A stretch of 52,324 nucleotides of DNA from SAR202 cluster bacterium (GCA_016872355.1 VGZY01000011.1:1-52324), one strand, 5' to 3'; counted from the first letter of the stretch, positions 23,175 to 33,027 are shown. A program made the numbers and translations. Notes: generated by a model not told the origin, from the letters alone.

Positions 23175-25787
23175 ATGGTCACTCCTGCGCGGAAGCAATA
23201 TCTGGATATCAAGAAGCAGCACCCGGACGAGATCCTCCTCTTCCGGATGGGCGACTTTTATGAAACTTTCGACGGCGATGCGCGCATCGTCGCGAAGGAG
23301 CTTGAGATCGCGCTGACGGCGCGGGAGATGGGCAAGGGCGGCCGCATCCCGCTGGCCGGCATCCCGTACCACGCGCTGGACGGCTACCTCGCGCGGCTCA
23401 TCAAGAAGGGCTACAAGGTCGCGATCTGCGAGCAGACGAGCGACCCCGCGACCTCGAAGGGTATAGTCGACCGCGAGGTCGTGCGCGTCGTGACGCCCGG
23501 CACGGTAATCGAGGACTCGATCCTTGACCGCAGGGCGAACAACCACCTCGCCGCGGTGATAATGGACGGCGACTCCGCCGGGCTGGCGTATGTGGACATC
23601 ACCACCGCCGAGTTCGCCACGAGCCAGTTCCCCGCCGCGCACCTGCCGGTCGAGCTCGCCCGACTGATGCCTGCAGAGGTGCTGCGCCCGAAGGACATGG
23701 ACGGCCTCCCCGCGCCGGACGGCGTGACGGTAACTGCCGTGGACGACACCGCGTTCCACCTGGAATGGTCAAGGGATGCCCTGCTGCAGCACTTCGGCGT
23801 CGGCTCGCTGGAGGCGTACGGCTGCGACAGGCTGCCGCTCGCCATCCGGGCCGCCGGGGCTATCCTGGACTACATTGGCCGCAACCAGAAGTCGGCGCTG
23901 GGCCAGCTAACGTCGCTGTACACGTACTCCACCGAGCAGTACATGGTGCTTGACCCGCAGACGCGGCGTAACCTTGAGCTGTACGAGGGCGGCCGGTGGG
24001 CGGACAAGCAGTCGTCGCTGCTCTCTGTCCTGGACCGTACGAAAACATCGATGGGAGCGCGCATGCTCCGCCGCTGGCTTGGCCAGCCGCTGCTGAGCGT
24101 GCCGGACCTGGAGCGGCGGCTCGATGCCGTGGAGTGGTTCCACCGGAGCGCCTTGCGCCGTGGCCGGATCATATCCGTGCTGGAAAACGTCTCTGACATC
24201 GAGCGGCTCGTCAACAAGGTCCGCGGTTTCTCCGCGACGCCGCGCGACCTGGTGGCGCTGGGCCGCAGCATGGAGTGCGCGCCGCACATTTGGGAGGTGC
24301 TGTGGGAGGACGAGGACGCACCAAAAGTGGAGTGGATAACGAAGGGAGTCGGCGACCAATCCGAAGTGGTGCAGCTTATCAAGAGCGCTGTCGCTGACGA
24401 TCCGCCACTCTCAGTAGGCGATGGCAAGACCATACGGCCCGGCTTCTCACCGGACCTGGACAACGTACGCAACTCCTCCCGGAGGGCGCAGGAGTACATT
24501 GCCTCGCTGGAGAAGACCGAACGCGAGCGCACGGGGATAAAGTCGCTGAAGGTCAGCTACAACAAGGTCTTCGGGTACTACATCGAGGTCAGCAACCCCA
24601 ACCTGGCGCAGGTGCCGTCGGACTACATCCGCCGCCAGACGATCACCACCGGCGAACGCTTCATCACGCCCGAGATGAAGGAGTACGAGTCGCAGGTGCT
24701 GAACGCCCAGGAGCGCGTGAGCGAGCTCGAGATATCGCTCTTCAGGCAGGTTTGCGGCCAGGTGGCCTCGCACGCAGGCGCAATAATTGAGGTCGCGCAG
24801 GCGATTGCTCACGTAGACGCGTTCGGGTCGCTCGGCGAGGTCGCATCGGTCCACGGCTATGTGCGCCCTGCGCTGAACGACGGCGAGGTCATCGACGTGA
24901 AGGACGGCCGCCACCCCGTGGTGGAGCGGACGCTCGAGGCGGGCGCGTTCGTTCCCAACGACATGCGCCTTTCTAACACGGACGACCAGTTGATCATCCT
25001 TACCGGCCCCAACATGGCGGGCAAGTCCACCTTCATCCGGCAGGCGGCGATTATTGTCCTCATGGCGCAGTGCGGCAGCTTCGTTCCGGCGGCGTCCGCC
25101 ACCATCGGCCTCGTGGACCGCATCTTCACCCGCGTGGGGCTGCAGGACGACCTCTCGACCGGCCAGTCCACGTTCATGGTGGAGATGGTGGAGACCGCCG
25201 CAATCCTGAACCATGCCACGCGGCGCTCGCTCGTAATCCTGGACGAGATAGGGCGTGGGACGAGCACCTACGACGGCCTGGCCATCGCCCGCGCCATAGC
25301 TGAGTACATCCACAGCCACCCACGCCTCGGGTGCAAGACGCTCTTCGCGACGCACTACCACGAGCTGATTGCCCTGGCAGAGACGCTGCCCCGTGTGCGC
25401 AACTTCAACGTGGCTGTCTCTGAGGACAGGGGCAACATCGCCTTCCTCCGCCGCATCGTCCCCGGCGGCGCGGACAAGAGCTACGGCGTGTACGTCGCGC
25501 GGCTGGCGGGGCTGCCGACGGCGGTTGTCAACCGCGCGTGGGAGGTGCTGCGTGAACTGGAGGAGCGCTCAAAGGAGAACGGCGCCCACCCCGGCGCGTC
25601 CTCGACTGCAGCCAGGGGCCCCTCCCGCCGCCCAAAGGTCACACCACCGCAGCAGCTTAGCCTGATGGGCAACACACCGCCCGTCCTGAGCGACCTCCTC
25701 TCCCTGGACGTATCCTCCATGACGCCCATCGAGGCGATCAACAAGCTGTACGGGCTGCAGGAAAAGGCGAAGAGGGGGAATCAATGA
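23175..25787 (+). CDS. mutS: DNA mismatch repair protein MutS
   Basis: 870 residues, full length. It has the mismatch-reading FRMGDFYETF (F and E of the FxE motif) near residue 28, the connector and lever domains, the Walker A GPNMAGKST near 611, and DEIGRGTSTYDG with the ABC signature preceding it. MutS binds mispairs and starts repair with MutL, which is not in the window. The long intact frame in a region with many broken genes suggests the sequence is reliable here. Its stop overlaps the zeta-like gene start by 4 nt. Confidence 0.97.
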   Translation: MVTPARKQYLDIKKQHPDEILLFRMGDFYETFDGDARIVAKELEIALTAREMGKGGRIPLAGIPYHALDGYLARLIKKGYKVAICEQTSDPATSKGIVDREVVRVVTPGTVIEDSILDRRANNHLAAVIMDGDSAGLAYVDITTAEFATSQFPAAHLPVELARLMPAEVLRPKDMDGLPAPDGVTVTAVDDTAFHLEWSRDALLQHFGVGSLEAYGCDRLPLAIRAAGAILDYIGRNQKSALGQLTSLYTYSTEQYMVLDPQTRRNLELYEGGRWADKQSSLLSVLDRTKTSMGARMLRRWLGQPLLSVPDLERRLDAVEWFHRSALRRGRIISVLENVSDIERLVNKVRGFSATPRDLVALGRSMECAPHIWEVLWEDEDAPKVEWITKGVGDQSEVVQLIKSAVADDPPLSVGDGKTIRPGFSPDLDNVRNSSRRAQEYIASLEKTERERTGIKSLKVSYNKVFGYYIEVSNPNLAQVPSDYIRRQTITTGERFITPEMKEYESQVLNAQERVSELEISLFRQVCGQVASHAGAIIEVAQAIAHVDAFGSLGEVASVHGYVRPALNDGEVIDVKDGRHPVVERTLEAGAFVPNDMRLSNTDDQLIILTGPNMAGKSTFIRQAAIIVLMAQCGSFVPAASATIGLVDRIFTRVGLQDDLSTGQSTFMVEMVETAAILNHATRRSLVILDEIGRGTSTYDGLAIARAIAEYIHSHPRLGCKTLFATHYHELIALAETLPRVRNFNVAVSEDRGNIAFLRRIVPGGADKSYGVYVARLAGLPTAVVNRAWEVLRELEERSKENGAHPGASSTAARGPSRRPKVTPPQQLSLMGNTPPVLSDLLSLDVSSMTPIEAINKLYGLQEKAKRGNQ

Positions 25788-26383
25788 CAGTGCGAAGCCA
25801 CGTTTCAAAACCGCCCTTGGTAGTAGTGGTTGCTGGGCCGAATGGAGCCGGAAAGACCAGTACGTCGAAAAAGCTTCTTCATGGCGCACTCGCAGTCAAC
25901 GAATACGTCAACGCCGACCAGATAGCATCCGGACTGTCTGCATTCCAGCCCGAGACCGCGGCCGTTGAAGCAGGGCGTGTGATGCTAATCAGATTGAAAG
26001 CCCTTGCAAAAGCTCGAGAGAATTTTGCATTCGAGACAACATTGGCAAGCCGGACGTTTGCGCCGTGGCTAGAGGTTCTCCGAGCGTCAGGCTACCGCAC
26101 TCATCTGAACTTCGTGGCGCTCCGTTCCCCCGAACTCGCCATTTTGCGGGTGGCGCAGAGAGTTAAGAATGGAGGCCACAATATACCGGACAATACCGTT
26201 CGGCGCAGATACGTCTCAGGATTAAGGAACTTCTTCCACCTCTATAGGCCCATTGTCGACTCATGGCAAGTGTACGATAATTCAGATAGGAGGGGCCCAC
26301 GCCTAATCGCTCATGACAACGCCGGCAGTGAAGCGATTTTGGATCTCGTTGCTTGGGATAACCTTTTGGAGCAGCAGAAATGA
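25784..26383 (+). CDS. Zeta-toxin/AAA kinase-like P-loop protein
   Basis: 199 residues, start overlapping the mutS stop (ATGA). P-loop GPNGAGKTST near residue 19, VNADQIASGL and FETTLASRTF resemble zeta-toxin-type kinases, which phosphorylate UDP-N-acetylglucosamine or related nucleotide sugars; the RVAQRVKNGGHNIP segment is common in this small-ATPase group. The next gene, a 59-residue protein overlapping by 4 nt, may be its partner. Function as toxin is inferred from similarity; many of these are plain P-loop kinases. Slightly lower GC than mutS. Confidence 0.78.
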   Translation: MTVRSHVSKPPLVVVVAGPNGAGKTSTSKKLLHGALAVNEYVNADQIASGLSAFQPETAAVEAGRVMLIRLKALAKARENFAFETTLASRTFAPWLEVLRASGYRTHLNFVALRSPELAILRVAQRVKNGGHNIPDNTVRRRYVSGLRNFFHLYRPIVDSWQVYDNSDRRGPRLIAHDNAGSEAILDLVAWDNLLEQQK

Positions 26384-26559
26384 CAATTAAAGAGCGTGAC
26401 AATCGCACACCTGCCGAACGCGTTCATGATATCCGCGCTATGGAAGCGGCCATGCAGGAAGCAGTCCGCGAAGAGATCGCCCGCCACAAGAAGCTCGGCA
26501 ATCCCATTGCCGTCTGGGAAGACGGTCGCGTGAAGTGGATTCAGCCTGAAGATATTTGA
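26380..26559 (+). CDS. Small partner protein of the zeta-like gene, 59 residues
   Basis: The ATG overlaps the previous stop (ATGA). The protein is a charged helix (TPAERVHDIRAMEAAMQEAVREEIARHKKLG) followed by a short beta hairpin PIAVWEDGRVKWIQPEDI. Short proteins of this pattern are commonly found next to zeta-like P-loop genes. I infer that it may be an antitoxin or regulatory partner. It is not covered by long-ORF methods because of its length. Confidence 0.65.
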   Translation: MTIKERDNRTPAERVHDIRAMEAAMQEAVREEIARHKKLGNPIAVWEDGRVKWIQPEDI

Positions 26560-26599: not shown

Positions 26600-26691
26600 T
26601 ACAATCCCCCCTGACACGAAAACGGCTACCGAAGCGTTTGCCGTTTTCGAAGTATCCTCCCGTCTTTAGCGGGAGGCCGTGCAGGAGGAGC
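26600..26691 (+). promoter_or_regulatory. Structured leader before the TIM-barrel array
   Basis: A TACAAT at 26600-26605 could be the -10. Two hairpins follow: arms 26617-26626/26640-26649 (CGAAAACGGC and its complement) and 26656-26662/26670-26676 (CCTCCCG and complement). The CCTCC of the second hairpin is also complementary to the AGGAGG ribosome site at 26684-26689, so alternative pairing could control translation of the first TIM-barrel gene. Speculative but visible. Confidence 0.35.
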
Positions 26692-26698
26692 CGTCGCA

Positions 26699-27535
26699 AT
26701 GATAAAAATCGGATGCAACTTCCTCAGCCTCAAGGGGCCGAACCGCGACGTCGACCAGTTCATTAAGATGTCGTACGACCTGAGGCTGGACATCATCGAC
26801 TGGCATACGTCCGCATTCCCCACCAAGAACACGGATGACTGGCTCAAGATCAAGCGCAGGTGCCTGGACTGGGGACTTTCAATCGGCTACCTGGGCATCG
26901 GCGGCAGCTTCATGCGCCCCAACGAGCCGCCCAGCAAGCAGGTGGAGCGCTGCAAGGCCGGCATCGACATGGCCGCCTTCCTTGGCTGCCCGATGATCCG
27001 CACCTTCGGCGCGCCGAAAGACGTGAACGCCAAGGACGGCAACGACGCCATCTTCGAGGGGCTGGCCAAGGGCCTCCGCGAGGCGGCTGACTGCGGCGCC
27101 GACAAGGGCGTGATGGTCGCCCTGCAGAACCACAACCACGGGAACATCGCCTCCACCGGCAAGGACGTCATCCGCATCCTTGAGACGACCAACCACGCGA
27201 ACGTCACCCTGATCATGGACACCGGACAGTGGGCCGGCTCCATCGGCGACGAGGGCCACCCGGACCTCTACGACCCCAACACGCCGGTCTACGACTACAT
27301 GGAGCAGACGATCCCCTACTCCGGCTATATCCGCGCCAAGTTCTACAAGTGCGCTAGCGGTCACGAGGAGCATATCGACTACAAGCGCGTCGCGAAGATC
27401 CTCAAGAAGGCGAACTTCAACGGCTCCGTCTCCATCGTCTACGAGGGCCAGGAGGAGACCGACCGCGCGATCATCGTCAAGAACGCCGCTAACGAGCTGC
27501 GCGAGGTACTGCGCGCAGAGAAGGTGGGACTCTAG
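26699..27535 (+). CDS. TIM-barrel sugar phosphate isomerase/epimerase-like protein, copy 1
   Basis: 278 residues with an AGGAGGAG ribosome site 7 nt upstream. The AP-endonuclease-2/xylose-isomerase-like barrel is seen in the DIIDWHTSAF, IRTFGAPK, VALQNHNHGN, LIMDTGQW, YIRAKFYK and SVSIVYEG strands. In the family a Glu, Asp, His and Glu bind the metal; here the first is Gln143 and the His-strand reads RAKFYK, while D174 and E249 remain. The other three copies share these changes, so a different metal geometry or a non-metal role is possible. Substrate unknown. Heads a row of four paralogues on one strand. Confidence 0.85.
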   Translation: MIKIGCNFLSLKGPNRDVDQFIKMSYDLRLDIIDWHTSAFPTKNTDDWLKIKRRCLDWGLSIGYLGIGGSFMRPNEPPSKQVERCKAGIDMAAFLGCPMIRTFGAPKDVNAKDGNDAIFEGLAKGLREAADCGADKGVMVALQNHNHGNIASTGKDVIRILETTNHANVTLIMDTGQWAGSIGDEGHPDLYDPNTPVYDYMEQTIPYSGYIRAKFYKCASGHEEHIDYKRVAKILKKANFNGSVSIVYEGQEETDRAIIVKNAANELREVLRAEKVGL

Positions 27536-27537
27536 GG

Positions 27538-27578
27538 CAGCAGTCAGCAGTCAGCAGTGAGCAGTTGGCTAACAGCCG
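27538..27578. repeat. CAG-rich short repeats between copies 1 and 2
   Basis: Imperfect repeats of GTCAGCA (CAGTCAGCAGTCAGCAGTGAGCAG) directly follow the first barrel gene. Similar low-complexity TAGTTGG repeats follow copy 2. They look like intergenic microsatellite sequence and have no coding potential. Confidence 0.7.
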
Positions 27579-27611
27579 GAAGACTTAGGCAAAATCGGGG
27601 AGAAACGGTTC

Positions 27612-28448
27612 ATGATAAAGATCGGATGCAACTACCTCAGCTTCAAGGGCCTGCCGCTGGACATCGAGACCTTCATCAAGATGTCCTACGAAATGCGCCT
27701 CGACGTGGCAGACTTCCACACCCGCGCGTTCAAGCTGGGCGACAACGCCGCGATCCTCAAGCAGAAGGCGCTGTGCGTGAAGTACGGCCTGCCTATCGGC
27801 TACATCGGCGTCGCGGGCAACTTCTCGACCAAGCCCGAGGAGCAGCAGGCAGCGCTCCAGCGCTGCCGCGAGGGCATCGACCTCGCCGCGTTCGTCGGCT
27901 CGCCGCTCATCCGCGTATTCGGCGCGCAGAAGATCGAGGGCGCGGCCAGTCAGGACCAGGTGTTCGACGCGCTATCGAACGGCCTCCGGGAAGCATCGGA
28001 GTACGGCGCGAAGAAGGGCGTGATCGTCGCGCTGCAGAACCACAACCACGGCAACATCGCCTCTACCGGCGAGAGCCAGGTGCGGATCCACAAGCAGGTC
28101 AACCACCCCAACTTCTCGCTACTCATGGACACCGGCCAGTGGGCCAACGCCGTCGGCGACGAGGGCCATGTGGACAAGATCAACCCCAACACGCCCATCT
28201 ACGACTACATGGAGCAGACGATCAAGTACGCGTCGTACGTCCGCTTCAAGTACTACAAGATCGCCGGCGGCAAGGAAGAGCTCATAGACAACGACCGCGT
28301 CATGGGCATCCTCAAGAAGGCGGGCTTCAACGGCTCCATCTCCATCGTCTACGAGGGCAAGGAGAACGAGACCACGCCGGAGCGCATCGAGACGATCCGC
28401 AAAGCCGCCGGTGAGCTGCGGACACTGCTGGCGAAGCATGGGGCGTAA
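27612..28448 (+). CDS. TIM-barrel sugar phosphate isomerase/epimerase-like protein, copy 2
   Basis: 278 residues; ATG preceded by GGGGAG. It aligns over the full length with copy 1 and keeps the same motifs: DVADFHTRAF, IRVFGAQK, VALQNHNHGN (Gln instead of the metal Glu), LLMDTGQWA, YVRFKYYK and SISIVYEG. Acting presumably as a cytosolic isomerase or epimerase of small sugars or keto acids, or a related lyase; no substrate is implied by context beyond the nearby amidohydrolases. Confidence 0.85.
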   Translation: MIKIGCNYLSFKGLPLDIETFIKMSYEMRLDVADFHTRAFKLGDNAAILKQKALCVKYGLPIGYIGVAGNFSTKPEEQQAALQRCREGIDLAAFVGSPLIRVFGAQKIEGAASQDQVFDALSNGLREASEYGAKKGVIVALQNHNHGNIASTGESQVRIHKQVNHPNFSLLMDTGQWANAVGDEGHVDKINPNTPIYDYMEQTIKYASYVRFKYYKIAGGKEELIDNDRVMGILKKAGFNGSISIVYEGKENETTPERIETIRKAAGELRTLLAKHGA

Positions 28449-28449
28449 G

Positions 28450-28490
28450 ACGGTAGTTGGCTGTTAGTAGTTGGTAGTTAGCTGAAGAAC
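28450..28490. repeat. TAGTTGG-type short repeats between copies 2 and 3
   Basis: GGTAGTTGGCTGTTAGTAG followed by GTAGTTAGCTG is a low-complexity stretch with several near copies of TAGTTGG/TAGTTAG. Same class as the stretch at 27538. Confidence 0.6.
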
Positions 28491-28512
28491 AAAACCTACA
28501 AAGGGGGCGTTT

Positions 28513-29337
28513 GTGATCAAGTTAGGCATCAATTACACGAGCTATAAAGCTCACCCGATGACGGCGGAGAAGTTCATAGACCTTCACGCCGAGCTGAAGA
28601 TGGACACCATCGACTGGCATACGGGCGCGTTCAAAGGGATGGACAAGAAGGAGCTGCTTCGCCTGAAGAACAAGGCGCTGATGAAGGGCCTGCCGATGGG
28701 TTACATGGGCCAGGGCGGCTCGTTCCTTCGCGTCACCACGACGCCTGACCCGCAGATCCAGATGTGCAAGGACGCCATCGACCTCTCGGCGTTCCTCGGT
28801 ATCCCGGTCATCCGCACCTTCGGCGCGCTCCCGCCTCCGGGGTGGACGGTCGACCAGACATTCGAGGGGCTGGCGAAGGGCCTCCGCGAGGCGGCCGAGT
28901 ACGGCGCCGAGAAGGGAGTGATGGTCGCGCTGCAGAACCACAACCACGGCAACATCGCCTCAAAGGCGGACGCGATCATCCGCATCCTCAAAGAGGCCAA
29001 CCACCCGAACGTTGGCTACATCCTGGACACCGGACAGTGGGCGAACACCATCGGCGACCAGGGCCACGTGGACAAATTCGACCCCACGGTGGACCTGTAC
29101 GGCTACATCGAGAAGGTCCTCCCCTACACCTGCTGGGTGCGCGCGAAGATATACGAGGTCGCCAGCGGCACCGAGAAGGCGCTCGACTACGACCGCATCT
29201 ACGGCATCCTGAAGAAGGGCAAGTACAACGGCTCCGTCTCCCTCGTCTACGAGGGCTATGAGAAGGACGACCGCACCGAGCTGGTCACCAAGGCCGCCAA
29301 GCACCTGCGCGCCATGCAGGCGAAGCACGGGCTGTAG
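28513..29337 (+). CDS. TIM-barrel sugar phosphate isomerase/epimerase-like protein, copy 3
   Basis: 274 residues from GTG 28513, with GGGGG a few nt upstream. Same barrel layout: IDWHTGAFKG, IRTFGALP, VALQNHNHGN, YILDTGQWAN, WVRAKIYEV and SVSLVYEG. The region around PPPGWTVDQTFEGL is diverged relative to copies 1 and 2. The DUF262 gene begins 15 nt after its stop, which separates it from copy 4 about 1.9 kb away. Confidence 0.85.
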   Translation: MIKLGINYTSYKAHPMTAEKFIDLHAELKMDTIDWHTGAFKGMDKKELLRLKNKALMKGLPMGYMGQGGSFLRVTTTPDPQIQMCKDAIDLSAFLGIPVIRTFGALPPPGWTVDQTFEGLAKGLREAAEYGAEKGVMVALQNHNHGNIASKADAIIRILKEANHPNVGYILDTGQWANTIGDQGHVDKFDPTVDLYGYIEKVLPYTCWVRAKIYEVASGTEKALDYDRIYGILKKGKYNGSVSLVYEGYEKDDRTELVTKAAKHLRAMQAKHGL

Positions 29338-29351
29338 GCAGCGCGGAAGAC

Positions 29352-31203
29352 ATGAAGGAAATCGTCGGTAAAGCGAAGAGCATAAGGGACCTGATTGGTG
29401 CAAGCAGGTTCGCCGTCGACTACTTCCAGCGCGAATATCGCTGGCAGACGAAGCACGTTGCGGAACTCTTGGACGACCTAGCTTCCAAATTCAGAGAAAG
29501 TTATGAGGCGTCTGATGAGAGGTCAGCCGTCGAGACGTACGGTCACTATTTTCTAGGATCCATCATCGTCAGCGATAAGGATGGGAAGAAGTTCGTCGTT
29601 GACGGTCAACAGAGGATCACCTCCATCACGCTTCTTTTGATGTATTTGCACAGCGAACTGAGTGACACTCTGCAAAAAGGCGAGCTGGCGAACCTGATCT
29701 TCTCCCTCAAATATGGAACGCGGTCGTTCAATATAGATGTGCCTGAACGCGCCCGCTGCATGGATGCCCTCTTCCAGGGGCAGCCGTTTGACGACGACGG
29801 GAGGTCTGAGTCAGTTACCAACATTCTCGGGCGATATCGGGACATTGAAGAGAAGTTCCCAGAGGAGCTACTGGGCAACGCTCTCCCGTATTTCGCTGAT
29901 TGGCTGATAGAGAACGTCCATCTCGTTGAGATCACAGCATTCTCTGACGAAGATGCTTACACAATTTTTGAGACCATGAACGACCGCGGACTATCACTGC
30001 GCCCCACGGACATGCTGAAGGGTTACCTGCTGACAAACATTCTGGATGCCAACAGGCGAACGCTGTGCAGCAACACTTGGGTTAACATGGTGCAGGAGTT
30101 GCAGAAGCAGGGCAAGGAGGAAGATGCAAATGCGATCAAAGCTTGGCTACGCGCCCAGTACGCTTCTACGATACGGGAACGAAAAAGCCTCGCCGCTCCT
30201 AAGGACTTTGACCTAATAGGTACTGAATTCCACCGATGGGTGAAGACTCACGAGGATGACCTCTCCCTAAAAAAACAGCGAAGCCTTCGCGCACTTCATC
30301 GAAAGCAACTTCGCATTCTACACAAGAGTGTATCAACGGCTAAGACAAGCATCGACGCAGCTTGCATCCGGCCTCGAGGAAGTCTTTTTTAACGCACAGC
30401 ATGACTTCACACTCCAGTTCCCAGTCATTCTTTCCCCACTTTGTGTGTCTGACAGCGAGACTGAGCAAAATAGGAAAGTCCGAGTTACTGCCACATTCCT
30501 CGACATCCTGCTAGCCCGGAGGATATGGAATTTTCGGGCCATTGATTACTCCACAATGCAGTACGCAATGTTCCTTGTGCTCAAGGACATTAGAAACAAG
30601 TCTCTCGAAGACCTTCTAGACATCCTGACCAAACGACTAGCGTCCGATCCTGAGACCTTTGCAACGCGGGACAGATTTCGCCTTCACGGTGCGAACCGAG
30701 GGCAAGTACATAGGACACTTGCTCGTATTACGGCCTTCCTGGAATGCGACACGGATATCAGGGTCGCGGAAAGATTCAAGGAGTACCTCAACCGGCAGGG
30801 GAGAGATGGGTATGAGGTTGAGCACATATGGGCGAACCACCCCGAAGACCACAAAGCAGAATTTCCAAACGCGAGTGATTTCTTGGAGTCCCGAAACCGT
30901 ATTGGTGGGCTTCTCTTGCTGCCAAAGGAGTTTAATGCAAGCTACGGCGACCTGCCGTATGAAGACTTTGCTGGCAAAGAAGGCAAGTACTCCAAGTATT
31001 TCGGGCAGAACTTACTCGCTAAATCGCTGAATCATCAATGCTATGCCAACCACCCTCGCCTTCTAAGTCTCCGTAACTCCGGTCTGCCCTTTCGCGAGCA
31101 TCGGGTGTTTAACAAGGCGGACTTGGAAGAGCGGTCGGTGTTGTATCGGAAGATAGCAGAACGAATCTGGGATCCGACGAGATTAGCAAGTGCAGCCACC
31201 TAG
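29352..31203 (+). pseudogene. DUF262/DUF1524 (GmrSD-like) nuclease gene, frameshift in an A7 run
   Basis: Start ATG 29352. The first frame is a DUF262 domain: YFQREYRW (residues 25-31), VVDGQQRITS near 82 and FETMNDRGLSLRPTDMLKGYLL near 205. It stops at 30392, while a second frame continues with NFAFYTRVYQRLR and a DUF1524 HNH-like domain (YEVEHIWANH, SRNRIGGLLLLPKEFN, YSKYFGQNL) to 31203. Removing one A from AAAAAAA at 30269-30275 joins them into about 617 residues. Such proteins (GmrSD, BrxU, SspE type) cut modified or phage DNA. Lower GC than the array it interrupts, suggesting insertion. Real decay, slippage or sequencing error are open. Confidence 0.75.
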
Positions 31204-31267
31204 ACGAAGACGTTAACACGCCATCGCAAGACGTTGACATCCCGAGGCAATCGGAGAAGTACCGGCA

Positions 31268-32095
31268 ATGATCAAAATCGGTTGCAATTACCTTAGCTTC
31301 AAGGGCGCGGCGAATGAGCTGAGCGTCGAGGACTTCATCAGGATGTCCTATGACCTGCGCCTGGACACCATCGACTTCCACCACCGCGCGTTTACGTCGA
31401 GCGATCCGGCGTACCTGCTCAAGATCAAGCGCATGTGCCTGGACTACGGGCTGCCCATCGGCTACGTCGGCGTCGCCGCCGGCGGGACCGGCACCGTGGA
31501 GGAGCGGCTGAGGGAGCGCGTGAAGCAGTCGAAGGCGGCCATCGACGACTCCGTGCACCTCGGCGCGCCGCTGATCCGTGTATTCGGCTTCTCCGCCGAG
31601 CAGAGCGACCCCAACCGCGACGCGCTGTTCACAGCGCTTGCGAACGCCTTCCGCGAGATATGCGAGTACGGCGCAGACAAGGGCGTCGTCGTGGCGCTGC
31701 AGAACCACAACAACCGCAACCTGGCCGCGGACGCCGAGGGCGTGCTTCGCATCCTCCGCGAGGTCGACCACCCCAACATGGCATACATCATGGACACCGG
31801 CCAGTGGAAGAACTTCTACGGCTCCTCCGGCACGCCCAACCCGACCGACGACGGTTACAAGTACATGGAGCAGGTGATGCCGTACGCCTGCTACGTCCGC
31901 ACGAAGTTCTACGAGGTGGCGAGCGGCGTGGAGAAGCGGCTGGACTACGAGCGGATAATGCCGATCCTGAAGAAGAACAAATTCAACGGGTCGATATCTA
32001 TTGTGTACGAGGGCGCCGAGCCCGGCGACCGGGTGGAGATCATCCGGAAGTCTGCGGCGCACCTGCGGAAGCTGATTGTGAAACATTCGATGTAG
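31268..32095 (+). CDS. TIM-barrel sugar phosphate isomerase/epimerase-like protein, copy 4
   Basis: 275 residues, ATG after GGAGAAG. Same family as copies 1-3, with IDFHHRAF, IRVFGFSAEQ, VALQNHNNRN (Gln at the metal position again), YIMDTGQWKN, YVRTKFYEV and SISIVYEG. It is separated from copy 3 by the DUF262 gene. The stop overlaps a long inverted repeat. Same functional uncertainty as the other copies. Confidence 0.85.
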   Translation: MIKIGCNYLSFKGAANELSVEDFIRMSYDLRLDTIDFHHRAFTSSDPAYLLKIKRMCLDYGLPIGYVGVAAGGTGTVEERLRERVKQSKAAIDDSVHLGAPLIRVFGFSAEQSDPNRDALFTALANAFREICEYGADKGVVVALQNHNNRNLAADAEGVLRILREVDHPNMAYIMDTGQWKNFYGSSGTPNPTDDGYKYMEQVMPYACYVRTKFYEVASGVEKRLDYERIMPILKKNKFNGSISIVYEGAEPGDRVEIIRKSAAHLRKLIVKHSM

Positions 32096-32190: not shown

Positions 32191-33027
32191 ATGATCATCG
32201 ATACGCACACCCACGTCTGGAGCGACGACTACGAGCGCTATCCCACCCCTAACGGGCGCAAGCACTCCATGCCAGGCTCGACTGAGTTCTTGCTGGAAAC
32301 GATGGCGAAGCACAACGTGGACCACGCGGTCCTCGTGCAGTTCATCGCGTACTGGTACGACAACAGCTATATCATCGACACGATGAAGCAGTACCCCGGC
32401 AAGTTCGCGGCTATCGGGCTCATCAACTGGTTCGAGCCCGGCGCGCCGGACCGGCTGGAGAAGCTGGTCAAGGAGCACGGCTTCGCCGGGCTGCGCTTCC
32501 ACACCTACCGCGCGCCCAATGGCCCGGCGAACTGGCTGGGGCCGCAGCAGCGCAATGTGTGGAAAAAGGCCCAGGAGCTTGGCTCCAGCTTCATCATCCA
32601 CGCCAAGCCGGAGCACCTTCCCATTGTGGAGCCGGTCATCGCCGCGTTCCCCGGCGTGAGCGTCACGCTGGACCACCAGGGCGGCATACCGCGCGTGGAA
32701 GACCCTCCCCACCCGATGCTCCAGAACCTGCTCGCCTACGCCAAGTACCCGAACGTGGTGGTGAAGTACAGCGTGGCGCGCGAGAAGGGGCGCGAGGACT
32801 ACCCGTACCGCGACACCTTCCCGATGTTCAGGAGGATTTACGACGCCTTCGGCCCGCAGCGAATCATGTGGGGCAGCAACTTCCCGGAGGTCTTCGACCA
32901 GACGAAGGGCTACGAGGAGGTGCTGGACATTTTCCGCAAACACCTCGATTTCCTTTCGAAGAATGACCTGGAGTAGATCTTCAGCAAAACGGCGCTGGGC
33001 ATTTACGACTTTACCAAACGGTCGTAG
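32191..33027 (+). pseudogene. Amidohydrolase (COG3618-like), split by an amber codon near the end
   Basis: ATG 32191. HTH near residues 6-8 (IIDTHTHVW) is the HxH metal pair; SVTLDHQGG and IMWGSNFPEV follow, with Asn in the place of the Asp of the usual WGSDFP. These enzymes hydrolyse lactones such as 2-pyrone-4,6-dicarboxylate. TAG at 32974-32976 ends the frame after FLSKNDLE, yet the same frame continues IFSKTALGIYDFTKRS to a stop at 33025-33027, matching the C-terminus of the paralogue at 33101 (WILGKTALGIYNF). So 16 codons are cut off; residual activity cannot be excluded. Confidence 0.75.

Follow-up and report, generated by a model that had tools for sequence, protein, structure and literature searches.

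The characterized sugar isomerases, epimerases, and eliminases of PF01261 that we compared here are divalent-metal enzymes built on a TIM barrel, with a Glu-Asp-His-Glu metal tetrad on strands 5–8. In the CGE/OGE group of eliminases, AgCGD2 binds Mn2+ through Glu147, Asp179, His269, Lys271, and Glu305 and uses His149 as base (PMC8563793). AtOGE has a strand-5 His as Mn2+ ligand and His134 as base. Here we describe four PF01261 paralogues of a SAR202 cluster bacterium (GCA_016872355.1), encoded on one strand between positions 26,699 and 32,095 of VGZY01000011.1, a whole contig of 52,324 bases that we analyzed at full length (hereafter, the window). Their strand-5 metal Glu is replaced by Gln and their strand-7 metal His by Arg. 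On balance, we favor the view that they belong to a clade with a rebuilt site, whose members are probably metal-independent acid/base isomerases or epimerases in non-phosphorylative sugar-acid or lactone catabolism. The four genes and the site codons of copy 1, whose residues were assigned by alignment and whose codon positions were computed from the start of the open reading frame (ORF), are as follows:

26699..27535, plus strand: TIM-barrel paralogue 1 (copy 1), 278 amino acids; PF01261 67.8 bits
27125-27127, plus strand: copy 1 codon Q143
27131-27133, plus strand: copy 1 codon H145
27218-27220, plus strand: copy 1 codon D174
27332-27334, plus strand: copy 1 codon R212
27338-27340, plus strand: copy 1 codon K214
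27443-27445, plus strand: copy 1 codon E249
27612..28448, plus strand: TIM-barrel paralogue 2, 278 amino acids; Q-D-R-K-E; PF01261 77.1 bits
28513..29337, plus strand: TIM-barrel paralogue 3, 274 amino acids, GTG start; Q-D-R-K-E; PF01261 72.7 bits
31268..32095, plus strand: TIM-barrel paralogue 4, 275 amino acids; Q-D-R-K-E; PF01261 77.4 bits

All four ORFs are intact and share 48–56% pairwise identity, and their PF01261 matches (67.8–77.4 bits) lie well over the gathering cut-off of 31.1, in agreement with an initial annotation that had described four tandem TIM-barrel paralogues from the sequence. The copies do share a strand, but they are not contiguous, as a split GmrSD-type gene lies between copies 3 and 4.

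Active-Site Residues and Predicted Structure

In copy 1, Q143, D174, R212, and E249 occupy the positions of the canonical metal set E-D-H-E, and all four copies have Q-D-R-E where outgroups have E-D-H-E. Gln is invariant in the motif VALQNHN of the four copies, and they retain both the Asp of DTGQW and, in VYEG, the last Glu. In the hhalign alignment, VVALQNHNNR lay opposite vlglenhdgg of a canonical homologue, with Gln on the strand-5 metal Glu and the last Glu on Glu, and HMMER placed Q-N-H opposite VENHG of 4OVX and IEVHN of the C-glycoside eliminase 7BVR. The Gln and the retained Asp and last Glu that the initial annotation had noticed are thus confirmed. Its further claim, that a strand with a Lys takes the place of the usual His, was off by two residues: profile alignment set YVRTKFYEVA opposite hvhaklydld, which puts Arg212 in the metal-His column and identifies Lys214 as the usual H-x-K Lys. 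Lys as a substitute for the His is thereby ruled out. We also considered whether the residues might align differently, with the usual Glu and His ligands in place; upon alignment, neither ligand was there.

AlphaFold2 predicted copy 4 with high confidence from a 59-sequence alignment (mean predicted local distance difference test score 95.6, predicted template modeling score 0.92). In this model, numbered by copy 4, strands 5 and 6 end in Q145 and D176, respectively, strand 7 contains R211 and K213, and E248 comes after strand 8, so that all five would be found on the catalytic face. The TIM-barrel superfamily fold was recovered with VIA-align 2, for which the best solved relative was 4OVX (Z 31.2, root mean square deviation 2.2, 259 residues), followed by Art22 (Z 28.7), DgpB-C (Z 27.5), and D-allulose 3-epimerase (Z 26.6), with many epimerases at Z 25–27. 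The uncharacterized 4OVX, a xylose-isomerase domain protein of Planctomyces limnophilus, was also the best PDB sequence match (73.7 bits) and has the E/Q-N-H, A-K, and Y-E-G motifs in common with the window copies, but it has Glu on strand 5 and Ser in the His column. The CGE/OGE enzymes (DgpB-C, AgCGD2, AtOGE) are similar in fold (Z ∼25–27), in their Asp, Lys, and last Glu, and in the position of the base His two residues past the strand-5 ligand, given that H145 (copy 1 numbering, as hereafter) aligns with E-V-H of 7BVR. However, their Mn2+ ligand set (Glu/His, Asp, His, Lys, Glu) is not present in the window copies, where Gln and Arg replace Glu147 and His269, and their gene neighbors are different. 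Likewise, D-tagatose and D-allulose 3-epimerases, IolI, IolO, and IolE resemble the window copies in fold (Z 25–27) and in the strand positions of the site, but their E-D-H-E tetrad is not kept.

We also compared the genes with NCBIfam equivalog models. The IolO, IolE, and psicose-epimerase models matched the window TIM barrels weakly (17–28 bits), and the best score among IolO, IolE, psicose epimerase, and Hyi was 28.2 bits against a cut-off of 300 (cut-offs 200–300). Equivalog identity was rejected for the TIM-barrel and amidohydrolase genes alike, as all scores fell far below the cut-offs.

Phylogeny and Distribution of the Q/H...R Clade

The same substitutions recur in ∼120 relatives, and together with the 15 copies of the window genome they make a pattern that chance cannot account for. 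Columns 143/174/212/214/249 of a 129-row alignment, which contains some duplicates, read QDRKE in 97 rows, HDRKE in 16, and EDHKE in two outgroups, while a few copies of the window genome and others were degenerate at the site (HDRKM, CDMKK, RDRKL, QDRKN/D/Q). The window genome (3.07 Mb, 133 contigs) has 31 PF01261 genes, 15 of which belong to this clade, arranged as arrays of 4, 4, 3, and 2 plus two single genes. Together with their relatives, these 15 combine Gln or His (rarely Cys or Arg) on strand 5 with Arg on strand 7, with one exception, Met.

The Arg and the loss of the Glu occur together, as indicated by a score gap and by the absence of Arg from other PF01261 proteins. In eight profile-searched genomes, all matches of at least 280 bits were Q/H-D-R-K-E, and matches at ∼150 bits or less that aligned at the site columns had the strand-5 Glu, except for one poorly aligned 34-bit match (DDRQE). 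The other alignable PF01261 proteins of the window genome and of a second genome (G212) kept the Asp and had Glu or His on strand 5; on strand 7, His predominated, Gln occurred twice and Lys once, and Arg never. Because our contig scan used the patterns LQNH/DTGQW and favors the Q type, the claim of coupling rests on whole-genome profile searches, which are independent of the Q motif, and on the two site comparisons just described. The pattern scan recovered 78 loci in Poribacteria, Latescibacterota, Gemmatimonadota, Spirochaetota, and Chloroflexota. By profile search, 54 of 58 Poribacteria genomes had clade members (56 passed the threshold, but two of these, at 138–141 bits, scored at the level of an E-type homologue), as did 24 of 41 Latescibacterota genomes and eight of 294 sampled genomes of the class of the window organism (nine matches minus the E-type G115).

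In a posterior mean site frequency tree of 83 rows, the Q/H...R clade was separated from E...H homologues with support of 100/99. The clade consists mostly of the Gln form; the His form branches at its base and recurs within it. The four window copies and five orthologues from other phyla formed one group (99/96), in which copies 1–3 represent a local lineage expansion (100/99) and copy 4 grouped with cross-phylum orthologues (L038, L042, L041, L053) instead (97/63). Comparison of 59 sequences from several phyla revealed an invariant His145 and at least 90% conservation of the Asp, Lys, and Glu and of many glycines. The initial annotation had suggested a distinct enzyme group, which is supported by the single clade and by the distinct gap in scores seen in every genome searched. 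Judging from sequence comparison, it is well supported that the Q/H...R proteins are a separate clade across five bacterial phyla whose members are mostly uncultured, and plausible that they have a chemistry of their own.

Some copies of the window genome (G000) have changed further. Two clade members at G000:C16 (L118) and G000:C48 (L117) show additional site loss (H-D-R-K-M and C-D-M-K-K, respectively) and adjoin Gfo/Idh/MocA genes, four of which lie near the C48 copy. In the C39 array, copy four (L022, G000:C39:2838-3686) has two in-frame TAA codons and is a decaying array member.

Gene Neighborhoods and Amidohydrolase Partners

Two amidohydrolase genes follow copy 4, both assigned to Amidohydro_2 by profile match and 55% identical to each other:

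32191..32976, plus strand: Amidohydro_2 gene 1, COG3618/LigI-like; Asn in WGSNFP; PF04909 127.3 bits
33101..33928, plus strand: Amidohydro_2 gene 2, COG3618/LigI-like; Asn in WGTNFP; PF04909 140.4 bits (start chosen by homology; its ORF opens at 32963)

The initial annotation had proposed that the TIM barrels might work with these amidohydrolases, a link borne out at the level of genomic linkage: 11 of 32 TIM islands (11 genomes) had an Amidohydro_2 gene no more than 5 kb away, compared with 0.76 expected. The pairing is non-random across phyla. By their PF04909 scores (127–140 bits) and PDB matches, both window amidohydrolases are COG3618-like, being most similar to LigI-type lactonases (4I6K, 2FFI, 4DLF, 4MUP, 4D8L). 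These profile matches were of 40–65 bits, and an L-fucono-1,5-lactonase model scored 49 bits, below its cut-off of 400. Gli, LigI, and L-fucono-1,5-lactonase are distant relatives only.

In both window amidohydrolases, and in most of the relatives linked to Q-type genes, Asn replaces the catalytic Asp of strand 8, which 2FFI and 4I6K carry in WGSDWP. 4MUP has Asn in its motif WGTNWP, as in WGTNFP of the window. We take 4MUP to be the Agrobacterium galactaro-delta-lactone isomerase (Gli). Work on Gli by Bouvier in 2014 reportedly attributed its activity as an isomerase, rather than a hydrolase, to a missing general base. Gli turns 1,5- into 1,4-lactone, after uronate dehydrogenase (PMC6353982). 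Partners of Q-type TIM barrels mostly had Asn, and partners of the H-type TIM barrels of SAR202 had Asp. It is possible that this difference is a hydrolase-to-isomerase switch that tracks the TIM type.

Recurrent neighbors of the TIM-barrel genes were a galactonate-dehydratase-like enolase-superfamily gene (26 loci), Amidohydro_2 (25), SDR (16), Ldh_2 (8), and AKR (8 and 6), together with UxuA-like and PhyH proteins. The neighboring SDR was most similar to Azf (126 bits). Four Poribacteria loci (L064, L067, L070, L071) had the gene order AKR, UxuA-like | dehydratase, TIM barrel, amidohydrolase, Ldh_2. In Latescibacterota and Gemmatimonadota, phytanoyl-CoA-dioxygenase-like genes belonging to several clusters, so named by sequence resemblance rather than by profile search, repeatedly flanked TIM-barrel genes (L073, L078, L087, L092, and others).

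Amidohydro_2 gene 1 stops at an in-frame TAG (32974-32976), where the neighboring amidohydrolase has Trp. Given that homology continues for ∼18–20 residues past this codon (IFSKTALGIYDF), the gene is slightly truncated or reads through.

Proposed Chemistry and Alternative Explanations

The setting in sugar-acid and lactone catabolism is well supported by the partner genes, and the substrate is likely a sugar acid, its lactone, or an oxidized sugar in a non-phosphorylative pathway. Sugars or uronates would be oxidized to lactones, which the amidohydrolase would isomerize or open, and an enolase-superfamily enzyme would carry out the dehydration. PF01261 isomerases presumably fall within COG1082. 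Lim et al. (PMC10444878) found improved growth of SAR202 isolates with fucose, rhamnose, and the corresponding lactones and acids, and they assigned paralogues of COG3618, COG4948, COG0667, and COG1028 to these pathways in SAR202; COG1082 is absent from the main text of that growth paper.

From the residues involved, the site probably no longer needs a metal. In the rebuilt site, Gln (or His) stands on strand 5 instead of Glu and Arg on strand 7 instead of His, while the Asp, the Lys, the final Glu, and the E-x-H His are unchanged. Asp174 and Glu249 would hold the guanidinium of Arg212, which could stabilize charge in place of the metal, and the formal charge would be equal, as E-D-E plus M2+ and D-E plus Arg both sum to −1. 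His145, in the same position as the base of CGE/OGE, would be the base. Given that AtOGE has a strand-5 His, this position can be His in a working enzyme. That the reaction is a proton-transfer isomerization or epimerization with His145 as base is a reasonable but tentative assignment. Since copies 1–3 arose in this lineage, differing substrate preference is the likely reason for the array.

Several points weigh against a metal-independent isomerase of this pathway. The Poisson test of amidohydrolase linkage (P 6e-10) takes related genomes as independent, so that its P gives an order of magnitude; more than half of the TIM islands have no nearby amidohydrolase, and neighborhoods vary. The enolase-superfamily neighbor is weaker evidence because such genes are very common, up to 46 per genome in these genomes, and for this reason its linkage was dropped as a statistical test. 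Finally, Gln and His are able to ligate metals, as the strand-5 His of AtOGE does with Mn2+, and Lys271 of AgCGD2 also ligates Mn2+ (PMC8563793), so that the site may instead be a Q/H-D-K-E metal site.

The main structural rival is accordingly a retained, re-ligated metal: a divalent cation bound by Asp174, Lys214, Glu249, and either Gln143 or its His counterpart, while Arg212 holds a substrate carboxylate. The near invariance of the Asp, Lys, and Glu in the clade agrees with such a site, but almost every member has a cationic Arg in the His-ligand column and has lost one acidic ligand, and among known PF01261 metal enzymes we found none with this ligand set. We therefore regard it as unlikely, though it fares best among the alternatives. 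The main chemical rival, beta-elimination, is more doubtful still. Here, the proteins would be 3-keto-glycoside beta-eliminases or hydratases like CGE/OGE, in which His145 takes the C2 proton; the E-x-H or H-x-H of those enzymes, with the second His as base, matches Q/H-N-H145, DgpB-C is a close fold match (Z 27.5), and Gfo/Idh/MocA genes lie near some copies, including those on C48 and C16 of the window genome. Yet two of the five Mn ligands differ, enzymes of lactones and sugar acids are the most frequent partners, and the window operon has neither a Gfo/Idh/MocA oxidoreductase (the sugar 3-dehydrogenase found near some relatives) nor a CGE beta subunit. It is very improbable that the proteins are catalytically weak or dead paralogues kept for binding, regulatory, or scaffold roles, as the further residue loss in the C16 pair (H-D-R-K-M) and C48 copy (C-D-M-K-K) and the two stop codons of one C39 copy might suggest, considering the conservation of His145, Asp, Lys, Glu, and glycines and the four intact window copies.

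Other Features of the Window

The GmrSD-type gene (DUF262 plus HNH, 29352-31203) starts 15 bases past the end of copy 3. Its N- and C-terminal domains are in separate frames, with a possible shift near a seven-A run at ∼30270, and the gene is thus either broken or affected by an assembly error. Just upstream of copy 1, two strong consecutive hairpins (26613-26676; fold z-score −2.6) could be a leader or attenuator; the second, CCTCCCGTC-TTTA-GCGGGAGG, occurs once in the genome. The hairpins had no Rfam match, nor did Rfam return anything over the whole window, and the count of terminator- or promoter-like sites around the operon did not exceed that of shuffled sequence. A zeta-toxin-like P-loop kinase (25784-26559; PF06414 49.8 bits) is overlapped at the 3' end of its gene by a 59-amino acid ORF (MTIKERDNRTPAERVHD...), and the two look like a small toxin-antitoxin-type pair.

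Implications

The fold, the superfamily, the type of pathway, and the kind of amidohydrolase partner are already known. In the papers and families searched, we found no doubly substituted metal site that marks a clade spanning several phyla, the SAR202, sponge-symbiont, and Poribacteria literature searched described no function for this clade, and a search for levoglucosan/xylose-isomerase-like lyases returned no literature. At its most specific, and more speculatively, our interpretation is that of a metal-free PF01261 branch in which a strand-7 Arg takes the place of the divalent cation, and which, alongside an amidohydrolase of the lactone-isomerase type, might catalyze a step not yet described on uronates or on aldono- or aldarolactones, as part of core sugar-acid metabolism in Poribacteria, Latescibacterota, and some SAR202 lineages. 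If true, this would represent a naturally occurring conversion of a metal site into an arginine site, in five phyla and in nearly every sampled Poribacteria genome, and it would fill an unassigned place in the non-phosphorylative pathways of sugar acids that have been proposed for SAR202.

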